DNA of 42,037 bases, from positions 1 through 42,037 of the IMG/VR virus record IMGVR_UViG_3300047443_000148, one strand, 5' to 3'. Made by a program: the position numbers and the translations under genes. The stretch comes from a virus. The notes below the pieces were generated by a model. That model did not search any database. It was not told the DNA's origin and saw only the letters and a program-made list of their open reading frames with translations. Of this stretch, positions 21,425 through 29,491 are shown in pieces. The number at the start of each line of letters is the position of its first letter. Within the stretch, counting starts at the first letter, position 1.

Positions 21425-21868
21425 GTGGCAATCTGGCTGGCCGGTAACCGCATTACGGCGACCAAACTGAACGAGTACTCGACCGAGCAGGAAGACACCA
21501 CCGCGGGCCGCACGACGACGTCGACGACGTTCACCGACCTGTCGGGCGGCGCTTTCTCCGCCTCGGTGACGGTGCCTTTCTCCGGGACCGTCCTGGTGAC
21601 GATCCGGTGTACGCAGCGCAACTCGACCACGAACAACAGCATCACGTCGTTCGACGCTTCCGGCTCGGTGTCCGGTTCCGTCTACTCGGCGTCGACAACG
21701 GCGGCGGTCATTGTCACCAACACGAACAACTTCAGCCTGACGCTCCAGAAGCGCCTGACAGGCCTCGTCGCCGGTGAAACTCTCACGGTGACGTCGAAGC
21801 ACCGCGTGAACGCCGCGTCCACCCTGACCGCCGACTACCGCATCATCATCCTGGAGAGCGTCCAGTGA
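21425..21868 (+). CDS. putative tail fibre or minor tail protein, 147 aa
   Basis: GTG at 21425 follows a GAGGAGTG site. It begins A-I-W-L-A-G-N-R-I-T-A-T-K-L-N, a start seen in many actinophage small tail fibre proteins. The rest is Thr/Ser/Val-rich beta structure ending I-I-L-E-S-V-Q. Its stop overlaps the start of the GH43-like gene, so both are probably made together in the late programme. Confidence 0.65.
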   Translation: MAIWLAGNRITATKLNEYSTEQEDTTAGRTTTSTTFTDLSGGAFSASVTVPFSGTVLVTIRCTQRNSTTNNSITSFDASGSVSGSVYSASTTAAVIVTNTNNFSLTLQKRLTGLVAGETLTVTSKHRVNAASTLTADYRIIILESVQ

Positions 21869-22959
21869 ACCGCTACCTGGTGGCCTTGCTGGCTTCTGTC
21901 CTGCTACTGCTGGGCGTGGGCCCCGCCTCGGGTACCGCCACCCCGTCGGCCCCGGTGACCGTCGCCGGTGTCGACCTGCACGATACGACGGTCAAGAAGT
22001 TCGGCGACACGTACTACATGTACGGCTCGATGTACGGGTGCGGCTACGAGTGGTACATCGCGAACACGCCCTGGTGCGGATTCGGTGTGTCGACGGCACC
22101 CGGCCTCGACGGCCCGTGGACGGCCCCGAAGGCCCTGTTCGCCCCGTCGTCGACGGATCCTTCGCTCAACCAGACGTGGCAGTCGACGTGTGGTGGCACC
22201 GGCCAGGGGTGTTTCAACCCGCGGATGATCCAGCGGTCGGGCTGGGGCAACGACGACGGGGTGTTCATTCTGTGGTTCAACGCGCCGCGCCAGTACACTC
22301 TGGGCGCCTCGAACGCCTACAACTCGATGGGCTGCAACGGCCCAGCAGGTCCCTGTGGGCCTACGGCGGGCGCCCCGTCGGGTTCCTACACGAAGCCCGC
22401 CCTGGACGTCTGTGCGGCCAATGGCGACTTCGGGATCATCGACTCGGGCCAGGGGGGCCGTCCGGCGATCGTCTGCACCCGGGCCAGCAACACCGGGCTT
22501 TCGATCCAGGAACTCAACTGGTCGGGAACCGGCGGCAACACCGGCGTCGGCACCACCACGGTGGCCGGTATCACGGGAGCCGAGGGGCCCGGCGGATGGT
22601 GGGATCCAGTCGCCCAGCAGTACGTCCTCACCTACTCCGACCAGGGCTGCGGCTACTGCGCGGGCACGCCCACCGGGTACGCCGTGTCGCCGTCGCTGTA
22701 CTCGGGCTGGACGGTTCCCGCCAATGTCGGCTGGGGTGCACCGGTGTGGGGCCGCCGGATCTTCAGCCCCAATTCGTGCGGGGGGCAACCGCGGACGGTC
22801 ACCGTCCTCGACGGCCAGCCGTATCAGATCGTCGACCTGTGGCTGGGTACCCGTAACGAGACGGCCGCCGACACGGTGATCTCTCCGTTGTCGTACGCCC
22901 CGGCTACGGGGGCTGTCGGCAACGTGTGGGTTCCCCCGGTGGGGTATCCCTGCCGGTAG
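21865..22959 (+). CDS. secreted GH43-like five-bladed beta-propeller protein, 364 aa
   Basis: Residues 1-23 are a signal peptide (basic start, L-A-S-V-L-L-L-L-G-V core, A-S-G cleavage region). The body shows glycoside hydrolase family 43 patterns: H39-D40 with F-G-D-T-Y-Y-M-Y-G-S as the catalytic-base blade, C-F-N-P-R-M in the next blade, candidate modulating acids D188 and D193, and E240 in G-A-E-G-P-G-G-W-W as the likely acid. Many cysteines suggest disulfides outside the cell. It probably acts on arabinose- or galactose-containing glycans of the host envelope or surroundings. Last gene of the structural operon. Substrate unknown. Confidence 0.65.
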   Translation: MNRYLVALLASVLLLLGVGPASGTATPSAPVTVAGVDLHDTTVKKFGDTYYMYGSMYGCGYEWYIANTPWCGFGVSTAPGLDGPWTAPKALFAPSSTDPSLNQTWQSTCGGTGQGCFNPRMIQRSGWGNDDGVFILWFNAPRQYTLGASNAYNSMGCNGPAGPCGPTAGAPSGSYTKPALDVCAANGDFGIIDSGQGGRPAIVCTRASNTGLSIQELNWSGTGGNTGVGTTTVAGITGAEGPGGWWDPVAQQYVLTYSDQGCGYCAGTPTGYAVSPSLYSGWTVPANVGWGAPVWGRRIFSPNSCGGQPRTVTVLDGQPYQIVDLWLGTRNETAADTVISPLSYAPATGAVGNVWVPPVGYPCR

Positions 22960-23696: not shown

Positions 23697-24007
23697 GATC
23701 CCTCCAGTTCGACGCGCGCCCTCAGGGCGGCGATCTTCGACTCCAGGTAGGCTTCCGGGTCCTCGACCCAGTCGTGCAGGGCGACCATCGCGGTGATGAC
23801 GACGTCGCACAGCTCGTTGGCCACGTCCAGCTCGGTGTGGCTGAAGCCCTTCCGCTTGTTGGCGCCTGCCTGCCCGATGAAGGCCTCCATGACCTCGCCG
23901 ACCTCCTCGGACAGTTTCATCAGGCGTAGGTCAGCGCCGTCGAGCTCGAGGTCGCACCCTTCCTGGTGGTCACGGATCTTGCGATGGATCTGGCTGTACA
24001 CGCTCAT
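23693..24007 (-). CDS. MazG-like nucleotide pyrophosphohydrolase, 104 aa
   Basis: All-alpha fold with the diagnostic acids E35-x-x-E38 (S-E-E-V-G-E-V) and E65-x-x-D68 (N-E-L-C-D-V-V-I), which bind magnesium and nucleoside triphosphates. Phage MazG-like enzymes adjust nucleotide pools or reduce alarmone-linked starvation signals. The gene overlaps the SsgA-like gene upstream and the membrane peptide downstream, so it belongs to the same operon. The length is usual for single-domain phage versions. Confidence 0.8.
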   Translation of the reverse strand: MSVYSQIHRKIRDHQEGCDLELDGADLRLMKLSEEVGEVMEAFIGQAGANKRKGFSHTELDVANELCDVVITAMVALHDWVEDPEAYLESKIAALRARVELEGS

Positions 24008-24426
24008 GCCTCTTCCTCCAGGAGTTCGCGGAGCTCGATGTCGATGAGGTCGTCGAGGTGGCTTCCCTCCGGATCGACCACGGAGTACGCGTGGGCGGCT
24101 TCGTCCATGAACCCGATGACCCGGTCGAGGGGGAGCGCCAGGTCGGCGTGCCCTTCCCTGTTGTTCAGGCAGACGAGGAGGGCGCCCGTTCCGGAGGCCT
24201 TCACCTTGACGTCGCCGTCACCCTGAGCCTCGATGCTCAGCGCCCCCCGGGCGAGGAGCTCGTAGGAGAGCATCCAGACGACGTCGTCGTCCTCCTCCTT
24301 CTCGATGATCATCTGAACGGCGAGGGGGTCGTAGTCCTCGTCGAACGACAGGGTCACGTCCAGCGGTATGTGGACCTTCCTGTCGGCTACCTTGAGCAGG
24401 ATTCCGTGCATCTTGCTACTGATCAT
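24004..24426 (-). CDS. SsgA/SsgB-like sporulation and cell-division regulator homologue, 140 aa
   Basis: SsgA-like proteins are found in morphologically complex actinomycetes, where SsgB and SsgA position FtsZ at sporulation septa. This protein has their length and succession of motifs: Y-D-P-L-A-V at residues 32-37, V-V-W-M-L-S-Y-E-L-L-A-R-G at 49-61, G-D-G-D-V-K-V at 69-75, C-L-N-N-R-E-G-H-A-D-L at 86-96, a L-P-L-D-R-V-I-G-F segment and an acidic helical C-terminus (L-D-D-L-I-D-I-E-L-R-E-L-L). ATG at 24426 overlaps the primase-polymerase stop. The family call rests on remembered SsgB sequence; the effect on the host is inference. It probably binds or competes with host division partners. 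Confidence 0.85.
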   Translation of the reverse strand: MISSKMHGILLKVADRKVHIPLDVTLSFDEDYDPLAVQMIIEKEEDDDVVWMLSYELLARGALSIEAQGDGDVKVKASGTGALLVCLNNREGHADLALPLDRVIGFMDEAAHAYSVVDPEGSHLDDLIDIELRELLEEEA

Positions 24427-25292
24427 GAGCCGTCCTTGTATCGCTGGGTGCGGAACGCCGACTGGATAGTCCGCTCGATCTCCATAGGGCCGAGACCCGC
24501 GGACTCTGCTGCCGGGCCGAGGGTGTCGATCGCCGACTCCACGGTAGCGCCCTCCTCGCACATGGTGCGCGCCGCCCACACGAGGGCGTTGTTCCTGTTG
24601 CCCTCACCGGCGTTCTGAACGGACGCGACCAGGCCCGAGTTGGAGATGGCGCCGGGCTGCATCAGGCCCTTCGGCCGTACGATCCTCGGCTGCTGGGGCT
24701 TCTCGGCGACGAGGAGGCGGATCCACTGGGGAGGCAGGGCCGGGGCCATCTCGTGACCGGCGAAGTAGGCCGCGCCTTCGACGACCGAACCGGCCGCGAG
24801 GACATAGCCCCCATACTGGCCGCCGTTCCCCCGGACATCCACGATCCCCTTGACGGGGGACGCCTGGGAGATGCGGGGCCAGTGGGCGGGCCACCGGTAG
24901 TAGAGGTGGAGACCGCCGGATCGGGTGCGGACCGAATATGTCATCAGATCGGACGGAGCGTCCCCGCCCAGCTTGTACGTCATCTCGTCGAAGACTTCCT
25001 CGCCGTTGACCCGCGGGCCGTATGCGTCGTGGAGATGCGCCCATTCGGTATCGCGGAGCTGGAAGTCCTCTTTGGCGACGTCGAGGTCGATGACGAGAAG
25101 CTGGGACGGCTTGCAGGCGACGCCGATGTTGGCGTGGGGGTCGACGTTCGTCCAGAAGTGGACGATGGCGTTGATGTCGTTGGTGGCGGTGAGCCCCCAC
25201 TGTCCGGCGGCGGGGTGAGGGACCTTCGCGTTGCGGGCGACGGGAAAGATCCCGAAGCCTCGCTGCTGGGCGGCCACCGCGTGCTTCAGCAT
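24423..25292 (-). CDS. bifunctional DNA primase/polymerase (Prim-Pol domain), 289 aa
   Basis: An archaeo-eukaryotic-type primase fold. I-F-P-V is at about residues 15-18, the metal-binding pair D69-x-D71 lies in V-I-D-L-D-V, G-G-L-H-L-Y-Y-R at 126-133 supplies the histidine, and D152 with R154 sits in V-D-V-R-G-N-G-G before G-Y-V-L-A-A-G-S. Residues 215-285 form the helical C-terminal primase domain. No helicase domain is attached; the ATPase is encoded separately at 38644-40065. It makes primers or short DNA for phage replication. It overlaps the 62-residue gene upstream and the SsgA-like gene downstream. Confidence 0.9.
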   Translation of the reverse strand: MLKHAVAAQQRGFGIFPVARNAKVPHPAAGQWGLTATNDINAIVHFWTNVDPHANIGVACKPSQLLVIDLDVAKEDFQLRDTEWAHLHDAYGPRVNGEEVFDEMTYKLGGDAPSDLMTYSVRTRSGGLHLYYRWPAHWPRISQASPVKGIVDVRGNGGQYGGYVLAAGSVVEGAAYFAGHEMAPALPPQWIRLLVAEKPQQPRIVRPKGLMQPGAISNSGLVASVQNAGEGNRNNALVWAARTMCEEGATVESAIDTLGPAAESAGLGPMEIERTIQSAFRTQRYKDGS

Positions 25293-25480
25293 CAGATGAT
25301 CACCAGCTCTCCGTACCTGCGGGCGGCCACGCAGATCCAGCAGTCACCAGACCCGTTGGTGAACTCATGGTCGACCTTCAGGGTGTACAGGCTGCCCATC
25401 AGGCCGATCGGCGCGGTGAAGTAGTTGCCGCGCTCTTCGAGGGTGAGTGCTTCGAGCCACTCGACGGCTTCGGGATTCAT
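25292..25480 (-). CDS. small protein, 62 aa, downstream of pup
   Basis: ATG at 25480 follows a GGGGAG site; longer frames upstream are shadows of the Pup-like gene. The N-terminal helix has E-W-L-E-A-L-T-L-E-E-R, then a beta-like middle (G-S-L-Y-T-L-K-V-D-H-E-F) and a single C-W-I-C pair near the end. It starts one base after the Pup-like stop, so the two are probably translated together. Not recognised. A partner of the Pup-like protein is an attractive but untested idea. Confidence 0.65.
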   Translation of the reverse strand: MNPEAVEWLEALTLEERGNYFTAPIGLMGSLYTLKVDHEFTNGSGDCWICVAARRYGELVII

Positions 25481-25481
25481 C

Positions 25482-25724
25482 TCACTCCCCGCCAGCCTGT
25501 ACGAACTGGGCGACGAAGTCCTGGGCGTTCTCTTCGAGGAGGTCGTCGATGTCGGCGAGAAGCTCTTCGTCGATCTGCTCGTCGAGGACGTCGTCGATCG
25601 AGGCGAGGGTCTGGTCGGTGGAGTCGGCGAGCTCGGTGTTGGTGACGTCCTTGACGGTTTCGGCCTGCTCCTCCTGGGCCTTGACCTGCTGCTTCTGCTT
25701 CTGGACCTGCTCCTGCTTCGCCAT
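25482..25724 (-). CDS. pup: prokaryotic ubiquitin-like protein (Pup) homologue, 80 aa
   Basis: Pup is attached through its C-terminal Glu to target lysines by PafA and delivers proteins to the actinobacterial proteasome. The C-terminal 24 residues (57-80) match the Pup core: A-D-I-D-D-L-L-E-E-N-A, then Q-D-F-V-A-Q-F-V-Q and a final G-G-E. In Mycobacterium Pup the same stretch is D-E-I-D-D-V-L-E-E-N-A, E-D-F-V-R-A-Y-V-Q-K and G-G-Q. Ending in Glu, it would not need deamidation by Dop. A77 replaces the usual Lys near the end. Residues 1-38 are a Lys/Gln/Glu-rich extension, longer than usual, with K3, K9, K11, K15 and K25. A GGAGG site precedes ATG at 25724. No PafA, Dop or proteasome gene is seen here. 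Confidence 0.88.
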   Translation of the reverse strand: MAKQEQVQKQKQQVKAQEEQAETVKDVTNTELADSTDQTLASIDDVLDEQIDEELLADIDDLLEENAQDFVAQFVQAGGE

Positions 25725-25750
25725 GTTACCTCCGGGTAATGAGATGGGGA

Positions 25751-25783
25751 AGCCCCCAGGTAATATGTAATTACCCAGGGGCT
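25751..25783 (-). promoter_or_regulatory. dyad and promoter region upstream of the Pup-like gene
   Basis: AGCCCC at 25751-25756 and GGTAAT at 25759-25764 pair with ATTACC at 2570-75 of this block (25770-25775) and GGGGCT at 25778-25783, with a CA/CA internal bulge and a five-base centre. On the minus strand TTGAAC (25794-25789) precedes an AT-rich TAATTACATATT stretch at a spacing suitable for -35 and -10. The dyad would cover the -10 region. It is also a possible terminator for the amidase operon, so its role is open. Confidence 0.5.
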
Positions 25784-25799
25784 CCGGAGTTCAAACCTG

Positions 25800-26723
25800 T
25801 CAGTCCTTGAGGCGAGCCGCCAGGAGATCGGCGACCTTCTTGGCGAGGGCGTCCAGGTCCACGCCGCCGGTCGCGAGACCGTCGACCTTCTTGGACAGAT
25901 CGGCCACGGCACCCTTGACCGCAGCCACATCCGTCCGGGCGTCACGGGCCGTCCGGTAGCCGTAGTACAGGTACGACTCCAGCGACCAGAACTTGTTGGT
26001 CTCCGCGGGGAGGTCGCTGTCCGGCGACTTGACGACGCCGTCCGTGCCGAAGATCTTCTTGATGTCGTCGGTGGTCAGAGCCACGTCTACTCCACTTCCT
26101 GTTGCGAGTTGAATGACCCGGGCGAAGTCCATGTCGCCGGGGTCGCCGTGCAGATTCTCGGTGACGTGCTCGTGGCCGAGGTGGCCGTAGTACGCATTCC
26201 ACTCGGCACCCGACAGCCGGACACCGTTGTTCGTGCCGTACGAGCCGGGATAGGCCTTCCAGGTCACCGTCGAACGGATCGCCACACCGTGATTGTCGTG
26301 CAGCCAGTTCACGAAGTCGGCGACACCTTGCAACGCCCAGTCCGGCGCGTCCGGCCAGTAGATGAACTCACCGGTCCGGCCTTCCCGGATCCAGGAGTCG
26401 CGGGTCGCCGGGTCGCAGGTGCCGACCAGCTCGATCTGGCAGGCGTTGTTGGTGTTGGTCTCGACGCCACCCGGGCTGTTGACGAGGGCGCGGGCCGACC
26501 GGTCGATGTCGTAGTGCTGGTACCACCGCAGCTTCTGGGCGGTCATGTCGGGCGCTGCGGTGAGCGTCGGGGCGACGGCGCCACCGTTGTACGAGGTGAC
26601 GGTCCGGCCTTCGGTGGTGTGCCAGACGCAGACGTTCACCTCCATCGGGGAGCCCGTATAGGTGTTCCCGAAGAACAGCGACTGGTCGGCGCCCGGGTAC
26701 TTCTGAGGTCCGGTCAGCGTCAT
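25800..26723 (-). CDS. endolysin, N-acetylmuramoyl-L-alanine amidase, 307 aa
   Basis: An Amidase_2 (PGRP-type) catalytic domain spans about residues 5-200. H35 lies in V-W-H-T-T-E-G, and the block G-H-E-H-V-T-E-N-L-H with D194 in G-D-P-G supplies the other zinc ligands. It cleaves the lactoyl-peptide bond in peptidoglycan. Residues 205-265 are a linker, and 265-307 a Lys/Ala helix with D-V-A-A-V-K-G-A-V-A-D-L, perhaps for oligomerisation or wall binding. There is no signal peptide, so it needs a holin; candidates lie at 35403-35810, 29504 and 23571. ATG at 26723 overlaps the stop of the gene upstream. Confidence 0.92.
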   Translation of the reverse strand: MTLTGPQKYPGADQSLFFGNTYTGSPMEVNVCVWHTTEGRTVTSYNGGAVAPTLTAAPDMTAQKLRWYQHYDIDRSARALVNSPGGVETNTNNACQIELVGTCDPATRDSWIREGRTGEFIYWPDAPDWALQGVADFVNWLHDNHGVAIRSTVTWKAYPGSYGTNNGVRLSGAEWNAYYGHLGHEHVTENLHGDPGDMDFARVIQLATGSGVDVALTTDDIKKIFGTDGVVKSPDSDLPAETNKFWSLESYLYYGYRTARDARTDVAAVKGAVADLSKKVDGLATGGVDLDALAKKVADLLAARLKD

Positions 26724-28262: not shown

Positions 28263-28547
28263 TCAGGTCACCGTCGTCCAGGCAGTGGCGGCCTTCTCGA
28301 TGCGTCCGCCGACGACGCCCAGGAGGAGCCCCCCGTAGGCGTCGAGGGTTTCCCTGCTGAGAATCGCGCGGGCCGCCCCGATCGCGTTGTACGGACCGTA
28401 GGCGGACTCGAACTCCTCGCCGTCGTACAGCCAGTACGGCTTGCCGGTGTTGGCCTCACCGCGGACCAGCTCCGGGTTTTGGCGCGGGCGCCTACGGACG
28501 ATCACCACCCGGTACATCTCTTTGCCTTCGGCCGCCATGGTGCGCAT
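28263..28547 (-). CDS. hypothetical protein, 94 aa
   Basis: ATG at 28547 overlaps the stop of the GH16-like gene (ATGA), favouring it over other in-frame starts. It has a compact alpha/beta composition: Y-R-V-V-I-V-R-R-R-P-R at the start, Y-W-L-Y-D-G-E-E-F in the middle and a C-terminal amphipathic helix. No motif is recognised. Confidence 0.6.
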   Translation of the reverse strand: MRTMAAEGKEMYRVVIVRRRPRQNPELVRGEANTGKPYWLYDGEEFESAYGPYNAIGAARAILSRETLDAYGGLLLGVVGGRIEKAATAWTTVT

Positions 28548-29491
28548 CAGCCCACCCACTTGTAGCAGGCCAGCCACGTGGTGTCGATGGTGACCGACGA
28601 GCCCGCGGAAGCCCCGAGGGCGTCACCGAGCGCCGATTCGTTCTGGAGGATCCAGTCGGCGCGGTCGGGGAAGTCGGCGTTGACGGTCTTGAACAGGTGG
28701 CCGTCGAAGTAGAACCGGACCTTGCCGGGGACGATCTCCGTGGAGTACGTGTGCCACGACGTCCAGGCCGAGTTGCTGGCCGCGTCGGCGCCGGACTCCT
28801 TGAATCCGTGAGTGAACTCGGAGACCGGATCCGACTGGAACGAGCCGCCCGCTTCCGGGTAGTCGATCTCGTTGGGCGTGTACCGCAGGTGGGCCATCTT
28901 GAAGCCGGGGGTGCGGGTGCGCACGATGAGCCGCTCCGAGAACTTCCCGTAGCGCAGGTTCATGCACTTCAGGGGGACCGGGGCGGCGACCTTGTTGCTG
29001 CTGCCGTTGGAGGTCATCCTGACGCGCATCTGGCCGTCGGTGCCGGACTTGTAGACCGACATAGTGGACTCGGGCCGGTAGTAGCCAGGAACGGGCCCTG
29101 CGTTGCCGTCGGCGCCCGATGCGGCGGTGTCCGGCCACCCCGAAGGGTAGGCGCCAAGCGTGCTGTAGTAGTGGCCGTACGAGGCTTTGAGGCCCTCGCA
29201 CTTGAAGTTGCCGTCTCCGGCGCACGAGAAGAACCGGCCGGTGGGGACGTTCTGCGAGTTGAAGTCCTCGGCGTAGAGCTGGGCGAACGGGCCGCAGTTC
29301 CCGCGGGGCGTGTTGTTGTTGATGGTGTGACACGCATCTTCGGACGGTGTGACAGCGTGTGCCCGAAGCTGGCCGGTGAGGACCGCCGCAAGGGTGAGGC
29401 CGGTGATCGCGCCCCAGGTCAGGAGCGGCCGAAGCCGCCCACCGTTCGGGGAGGGCGGCTCGGGAGTGGGCGGATGCCCCTCTTGTGACAT
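28547..29491 (-). CDS. secreted GH16-like (laminarinase/agarase clan) hydrolase, 314 aa
   Basis: Residues 1-21 are Pro-rich and cytosolic, 24-46 a hydrophobic signal or anchor helix, and 48-314 a concanavalin-type jelly roll. The active-site pattern of glycoside hydrolase family 16, E-x-D-x-x-E, is present as E208-I-D-Y-P-E213, with W-H-T-Y-S-T-E-I and V-R-F-Y-F-D-G downstream as in the family. Cysteines C54, C66, C90, C98 and C176 fit an exported protein. It should cleave beta-1,3 or beta-1,4 glucan- or galactan-like polymers of the host envelope or matrix. ATG at 29491; downstream gene overlaps. Substrate unknown. Confidence 0.7.
   Translation of the reverse strand: MSQEGHPPTPEPPSPNGGRLRPLLTWGAITGLTLAAVLTGQLRAHAVTPSEDACHTINNNTPRGNCGPFAQLYAEDFNSQNVPTGRFFSCAGDGNFKCEGLKASYGHYYSTLGAYPSGWPDTAASGADGNAGPVPGYYRPESTMSVYKSGTDGQMRVRMTSNGSSNKVAAPVPLKCMNLRYGKFSERLIVRTRTPGFKMAHLRYTPNEIDYPEAGGSFQSDPVSEFTHGFKESGADAASNSAWTSWHTYSTEIVPGKVRFYFDGHLFKTVNADFPDRADWILQNESALGDALGASAGSSVTIDTTWLACYKWVG

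Follow-up and report, generated by a model that had tools for sequence, protein, structure and literature searches.

A phage-encoded Pup-family protein lacking a lysine that is invariant in sampled host Pups

Does a phage that carries a small gene resembling the bacterial prokaryotic ubiquitin-like protein (Pup) make a usable tag, and whose enzymes would attach it? Here, we addressed this question with the virus record IMGVR_UViG_3300047443_000148, whose entire 42,037 bases are referred to below as the window. The gene in question lies on the minus strand at 25482-25724, runs from ATG to TGA behind a strong Shine-Dalgarno sequence (CCCGGAGGTAAC-ATG) and encodes 80 amino acids, MAKQEQVQKQKQQVKAQEEQAETVKDVTNTELADSTDQTLASIDDVLDEQIDEELLADIDDLLEENAQDFVAQFVQAGGE. 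The initial annotation had proposed a phage-encoded Pup with a final Gly-Gly-Glu, and had suggested a profile search as a check. The reading frame does end in ...FVQAGGE, and the Pfam Pup family PF05639 was matched at 43.3 bits against a cut-off of 27 (E 7.3e-11), with residues 13-80 aligned to positions 6-69 of the 69-position profile and with the C-terminal Gly-Gly-Glu/Gln that defines the family (...QAGGE). In a phmmer search of the PDB the best match was Pup of Mycobacterium tuberculosis (3m91, 1.8e-6), 7px9 and other solved Pup chains being matched as well, and comparison with these chains identified the acidic helical core [LI]xDIDD[VL]LEENxxxFV. This core is the part of Pup which binds PafA/Dop and Mpa/ARC. 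We therefore regard membership of the Pup family as practically certain. The NCBIfam model TIGR03687 (pupylate_cterm) scored 40.9 bits (E 1.5e-10), narrowly below its equivalog cut-off of 41.45, and its canonical QKGG[E/Q] motif, with Lys at position -4 (K61), is absent, since Ala occupies this position, as the annotation had correctly read. Because of this near miss and the missing lysine, we file the protein as a homologue and variant within the Pup family rather than as a canonical TIGR03687 equivalog. An AlphaFold monomer model contains helices only (residues 2-50 and 54-76; pLDDT about 74, pTM 0.30). No PHROGs family matched the protein, and tblastn against GenBank phages returned nothing, probably due to low-complexity masking. 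The features of the locus are collected in the table.

Table. Features of the Pup gene and its surroundings in the window
Feature	Position	Strand	Evidence
Phage Pup gene, 80 aa, C-terminus GGE	25482..25724	-	PF05639 7.3e-11; PDB Pup 1.8e-6; Shine-Dalgarno CCCGGAGGTAAC
C-terminal segment ENAQDFVAQFVQAGGE, which enters the PafA/Dop active site; Ala at -4, Ala at -9	25485..25532	-	Column counts against 124 host Pups
Extended acidic helix with imperfect repeat LASIDDVLDEQ (residues 40-50) / LADIDDLLEEN (residues 56-66)	25527..25607	-	Shuffle test
Lys/Gln-rich N-terminal region MAKQEQVQKQK..., presumed threading segment	25650..25724	-	Translation; host N-termini alike
62-aa ORF, start 1 nt past the Pup stop, no Pfam match	25292..25480	-	
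Bifunctional primase-polymerase, downstream neighbour	24423..25292	-	PF09250 2.8e-27; syntenic in Dagobah, L003
Endolysin, upstream neighbour	25800..26723	-	blastn to Streptomyces phage endolysins; syntenic in Dagobah, L003
Conserved hairpin, 16-bp stem, between endolysin gene and Pup	25742..25785	-	Fold and comparison

The protein shares with bacterial Pups (M. tuberculosis, Streptomyces, Corynebacterium) the LEENxxxFVxxFVQxGG[E/Q] motif, an acidic coiled-coil helix and a Lys/Gln-rich N-terminus, while differing in length from the sampled host Pups, which mostly have 60-73 residues. The N-terminal region had been described as both changed and longer. The extra length is real, but it sits mostly in the acidic middle helix, where the core motif (IDDVLDEQ) recurs in imperfect form, whereas the N-terminus itself resembles those of hosts. 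Host Pups from a phylum-wide actinobacterial sample begin with, for example, MSEQEQVRKQ or MSEQERIQKQR, so that QEQVQKQK, at one point considered a phage-specific motif, was dropped. All five lysines of the window Pup fall within residues 3-25. The internal repeat was supported by shuffling in the window Pup (p 0.0015-0.0025) and in that of IMG/VR contig L003 (p 0.0005-0.001); it was not significant in the Pup of contig L005.

In order to see how far the C-terminal changes depart from host sequences, we compared 28 distinct phage Pups with 124 Pups from actinobacterial genomes (75 + 49; 118 distinct sequences), all hosts belonging to that phylum. Position -4 is Lys in every one of the 124 host Pups and some other residue in 10 of the 28 phage Pups; position -9 is Arg or Lys in 123 of the 124 hosts and not basic in 11 phage sequences. 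Fisher p values are about 1e-8 for each position, and since the phage Pups are related to one another these should not be read as true probabilities. The lysine at -4 (K61), the acceptor site of di-Pup, is replaced in at least three phage groups: that of the window, L003 and Streptomyces phage Dagobah (A, Q, V), T4-like phages (R), and contigs L010, L103 and L138 (R). Both basic residues are lost only in the window, L003 and Dagobah, and contig L006, a close relative of Dagobah within the same group, has retained Lys at -4. Invariant in all 28 phage Pups are GG[EQ], Q-5, F-11, N-15, E-17 and L-18 (L-E-x-N), the GG[EQ] end being found in all extracted host Pups too. Many phage Pups are ordinary in sequence, with QKGGQ/E and K or R at -9. 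Glu is the final residue in the window group, and Gln in 14 of the 28 phage sequences; thus, independence of Dop is not a general property of phage Pups.

The hosts of the sampled bacterial Pups also possess PafA and Dop. Here, in contrast, the PafA/Dop family (PF03136) was detected in none of the 41 Pup-bearing records, which comprise the window, Dagobah and 39 IMG/VR contigs, the IMG/VR records often being fragments; the Corynebacterium glutamicum control was positive. No 20S proteasome subunit (PF00227) was found in the 25 records checked, and no Mpa/ARC (TIGR03689) above the cut-off in the 11 records checked, with no match at all in the window. The annotated absence of a ligase, depupylase or proteasome gene from this phage thus held, and its identification as a phage Pup that would use the enzymes of the host is strongly supported. 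That some 40 other viral sequences from several phage groups have the tag without its enzymes suggests that phages commonly feed a tag of their own into the host degradation machinery.

The window also carries genes for a terminase, a portal, a head-maturation protease and a major head protein. The Pup gene is probably co-transcribed with the 62-aa ORF that follows it. The hairpin in front of it (fold -39.1 kcal/mol for the 101-nt stretch, z -2.4) is kept, with paired substitutions, in L003, L006 and Dagobah, and is possibly a terminator devoid of a U-tract or a 5' RNA element of the Pup operon; a scan for sigma-70 promoters and terminators near the gene found none. A DUF3310 gene is also among the neighbours (Pfam search), and a homologue of the SsgA-family sporulation regulators, a family member of which is present in Dagobah too, is encoded at 24004-24426 (-; PF04686, 1.3e-13). 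Since the related Dagobah infects Streptomyces coelicolor M600 and an SsgA gene lies nearby, the host of the window phage is probably a proteasome-bearing, Streptomyces-like actinobacterium. Streptomyces-like hosts encode the pupylation system, and Pup was detected in 320 of the 395 genomes of the sampled actinobacterial class. Elsewhere in the window, two large ORFs of 314 aa (28547-29491, -) and 364 aa (21865-22959, +) have secretion-signal-like starts and no Pfam match.

The Dagobah gene (MT711977.1, HUN42_00036), already named 'ubiquitin-like protein Pup' in GenBank, encodes a protein 49% identical to the window Pup, with the same GGE end, no Lys at -4 and the hairpin upstream. Its surroundings follow the order of the window as well, i.e., endolysin, Pup, small ORF, primase/polymerase and, further on, the SsgA-family regulator. 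It differs in having Val at -4 and Asn at -9 instead of two Ala residues, and in an internal repeat that is not significant. The genome paper of Dagobah mentions SsgA and is silent on Pup, ubiquitin and the proteasome (PMC7650747). In the open-access literature, with few subscription journals and no preprints covered, we found neither a discussion of phage Pups nor a paper on viral use of pupylation. When the Dagobah protein was used as a query against GenBank phages, it matched only itself and MT835496.1 (L092), a 159-kb 'Bacteriophage sp.' entry with an Mpa-Dop-Pup-PafA-type locus at 39645-47716. We rejected this entry as a phage Pup, as it has a complete Pup locus and appears to be an actinobacterial contig that was misfiled.

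Contig L003 carries endolysin, Pup, primase and an SsgA-like ORF in the order seen in the window. Alignment-guided scans of IMG/VR yielded 39 further viral contigs with Pup, including T4-like ones, and the GC content of the Pup-bearing phage contigs spans 38-71%. Hallmark or replication genes lie near Pup in many of them: a T4-type major head protein and a UvsW-like helicase (L011), a major head protein (L130), terminase (L013, L106, L119, L120, L125), head-morphogenesis (L098), portal (L113) and DNA polymerase (L005, L010). For L007, L012, L102, L103, L117, L123, L124 and L138, the single-protein check gave no match or a nonspecific one, the viral label being that of IMG/VR. These other phage Pups (e.g., T4-like L011/L130, L005, L007, L012, L124) resemble the window Pup in that PafA and Dop are absent from the record; they differ in belonging to other phage groups, in that half of the distinct sequences end in Gln, and in that many have Lys at -4. 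The Pups of the T4-like contigs all combine Arg at -4 with a GGE end. In L011 (8001-8180) and L130 (4884-5060), Pup stands directly upstream of a UvsW-like helicase gene, as confirmed in L011.

The gene has been maintained by selection. L003 (72% identity), Dagobah and L006 all preserve its reading frame, at dN/dS values of about 0.33-0.38, and every phage Pup pair with usable dS shows purifying selection (dN/dS 0.06-0.38). In a tree of 28 phage and 118 host sequences (64 columns), the window Pup and L003 group with L007/L009. Recent capture from a Streptomyces-type host is not indicated by this tree, because most host Pups of the class-wide sample sit in one large group and the window Pup lies outside it. 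Parsimony gives nine changes between host and phage; a single origin is also compatible with the tree, and it does not decide between one capture and several.

What could such a protein do during infection? In the known pathway, PafA uses the terminal Glu of Pup for ligation, a Gln end has first to be deamidated by Dop, and Dop also removes Pup (PMC3511204), while the coiled coils of Mpa bind the Pup helix and the disordered N-terminus is threaded (PMC8755798). By its sequence features the window Pup would work like a Pup, and direct ligation by PafA through the Glu end is plausible. Since selection has preserved all the elements that serve PafA, Dop and ARC, a live tag is the simplest reading: we give about an even chance to an active, Dop-independent Pup which host PafA attaches to proteins and which resists Pup-on-Pup conjugation. 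Host PafA would then charge it directly during infection, with no need for deamidation, and join it to lysines of host and/or phage proteins; the conjugates would be recognised by the coiled coils of host ARC/Mpa via the lengthened acidic helix before being threaded and broken down by the host proteasome. Without Lys -4, the phage Pup would not be spent on Pup-Pup conjugation, K61 being the site at which free di-Pup forms (PMC4783102). The loss of this lysine is no argument against ligation, because in M. smegmatis all K-to-R mutants of PupE, the lysine-free one included, modified PanB about equally well (PMC4783102). With both C-terminal basic residues gone, the grip of Dop may weaken and the tags may come off less easily. 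Overall, extra pupylation would come in a burst that escapes control by the host's own Pup or Dop, and as free Pup is scarce and rarely seen in M. tuberculosis cells (PMC5358908), an extra supply could matter. The phage might gain by clearing host proteins that inhibit it, by recycling amino acids or by overloading the pathway. Counted against the active tag are the TIGR03687 near miss, the kinship among phage Pups, the Gln end of half of the distinct ones, the Lys -4 of L006 and the loss here of the basic residue that 123 of 124 hosts have at -9, which could reduce affinity for PafA.

Other fates can be read from the same residues. The choice of substrate is made by PafA, not by Pup. The earlier suggestion that the protein re-directs degradation to new targets is therefore weakened, and a change in the amount, reversibility or fate of tagging seems likelier than re-direction by Pup alone. 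A tag that jams the pathway was also considered: PafA would attach the phage Pup, its C-terminus would resist Dop and/or its N-terminus or long helix would stall on ARC, and tagged proteins would be neither rescued nor degraded. This would suit the window subgroup, in which GGE is kept while both C-terminal basic residues and the helix length are altered, and since the contacts of Pup with Dop are more extensive than those with PafA (PMC8599861), the C-terminal changes could hit Dop harder. Yet the disordered-type, host-like N-terminal threader is retained and changes of this kind are missing from most other phage Pups, so we consider such jamming unlikely. Doubtful, though somewhat less so, is the broader idea that several unrelated phage groups employ Pup as a weapon against the host, one that escapes K61 pupylation, is hard for Dop to act on and lets PafA tag host proteins irreversibly.

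The possibility that the free protein merely occupies PafA, Dop or the coiled coils of ARC, and so inhibits the host pathway unconjugated, appears quite unlikely to us. Loss of the basic residue at -9 could block the chemistry, and ARC could be bound more tightly by an acidic helix that is longer and repeats the core motif; but the invariant GG[EQ] of all 28 phage Pups would not be needed by an unconjugated ARC decoy, and in vitro free Pup loses out to pupylated substrates in competition for the proteasome (PMC6476560). A simple decoy for one partner, as initially raised, is likewise weakened, because what all three partners require, namely the GGE end, two C-terminal helices, and the acidic helix with its presumably disordered threader, is kept. 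We find it very unlikely that the gene is an ordinary host-captured Pup which only boosts proteasomal recycling of amino acids or removal of damaged or host proteins, its residue changes being drift. The many phage Pups of ordinary sequence and the scarcity of free Pup in M. tuberculosis would agree with it; nevertheless, Lys -4 has been lost in at least three phage groups and in none of the 124 hosts. Barely credible, finally, is an artefact, be it a low-complexity acidic ORF that arose by chance or a bacterial sequence contaminating a viral contig. The sequence is indeed of low complexity, filtered tblastn finds nothing, and the GenBank match MT835496.1 does look bacterial, but this reading is refuted by the HMM score (E 7e-11), purifying selection, the phage structural genes on the same contig, and synteny with the isolated phage Dagobah, where Pup also lies between endolysin and primase.

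In eukaryotes, viruses are well known for taking over ubiquitin pathways, and the weapon described above, if real, would be the viral take-over of a bacterial ubiquitin-like pathway. A widespread phage Pup without the otherwise invariant acceptor lysine offers a direct handle on the cellular roles of Pup-on-Pup conjugation and of reversal by Dop, and with Dagobah and S. coelicolor the role of the actinobacterial proteasome in phage infection becomes testable.

We also looked at second Pup copies in bacterial genomes as possible prophages. All 320 positive genomes of the class-wide sample have a single PF05639 match each, and in the phylum-wide sample two genomes (G613 and G574) have two matches. 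In G613 these are near-identical, host-like Pup genes (L169, L170) on different contigs, which may reflect a strain mixture or a duplication.
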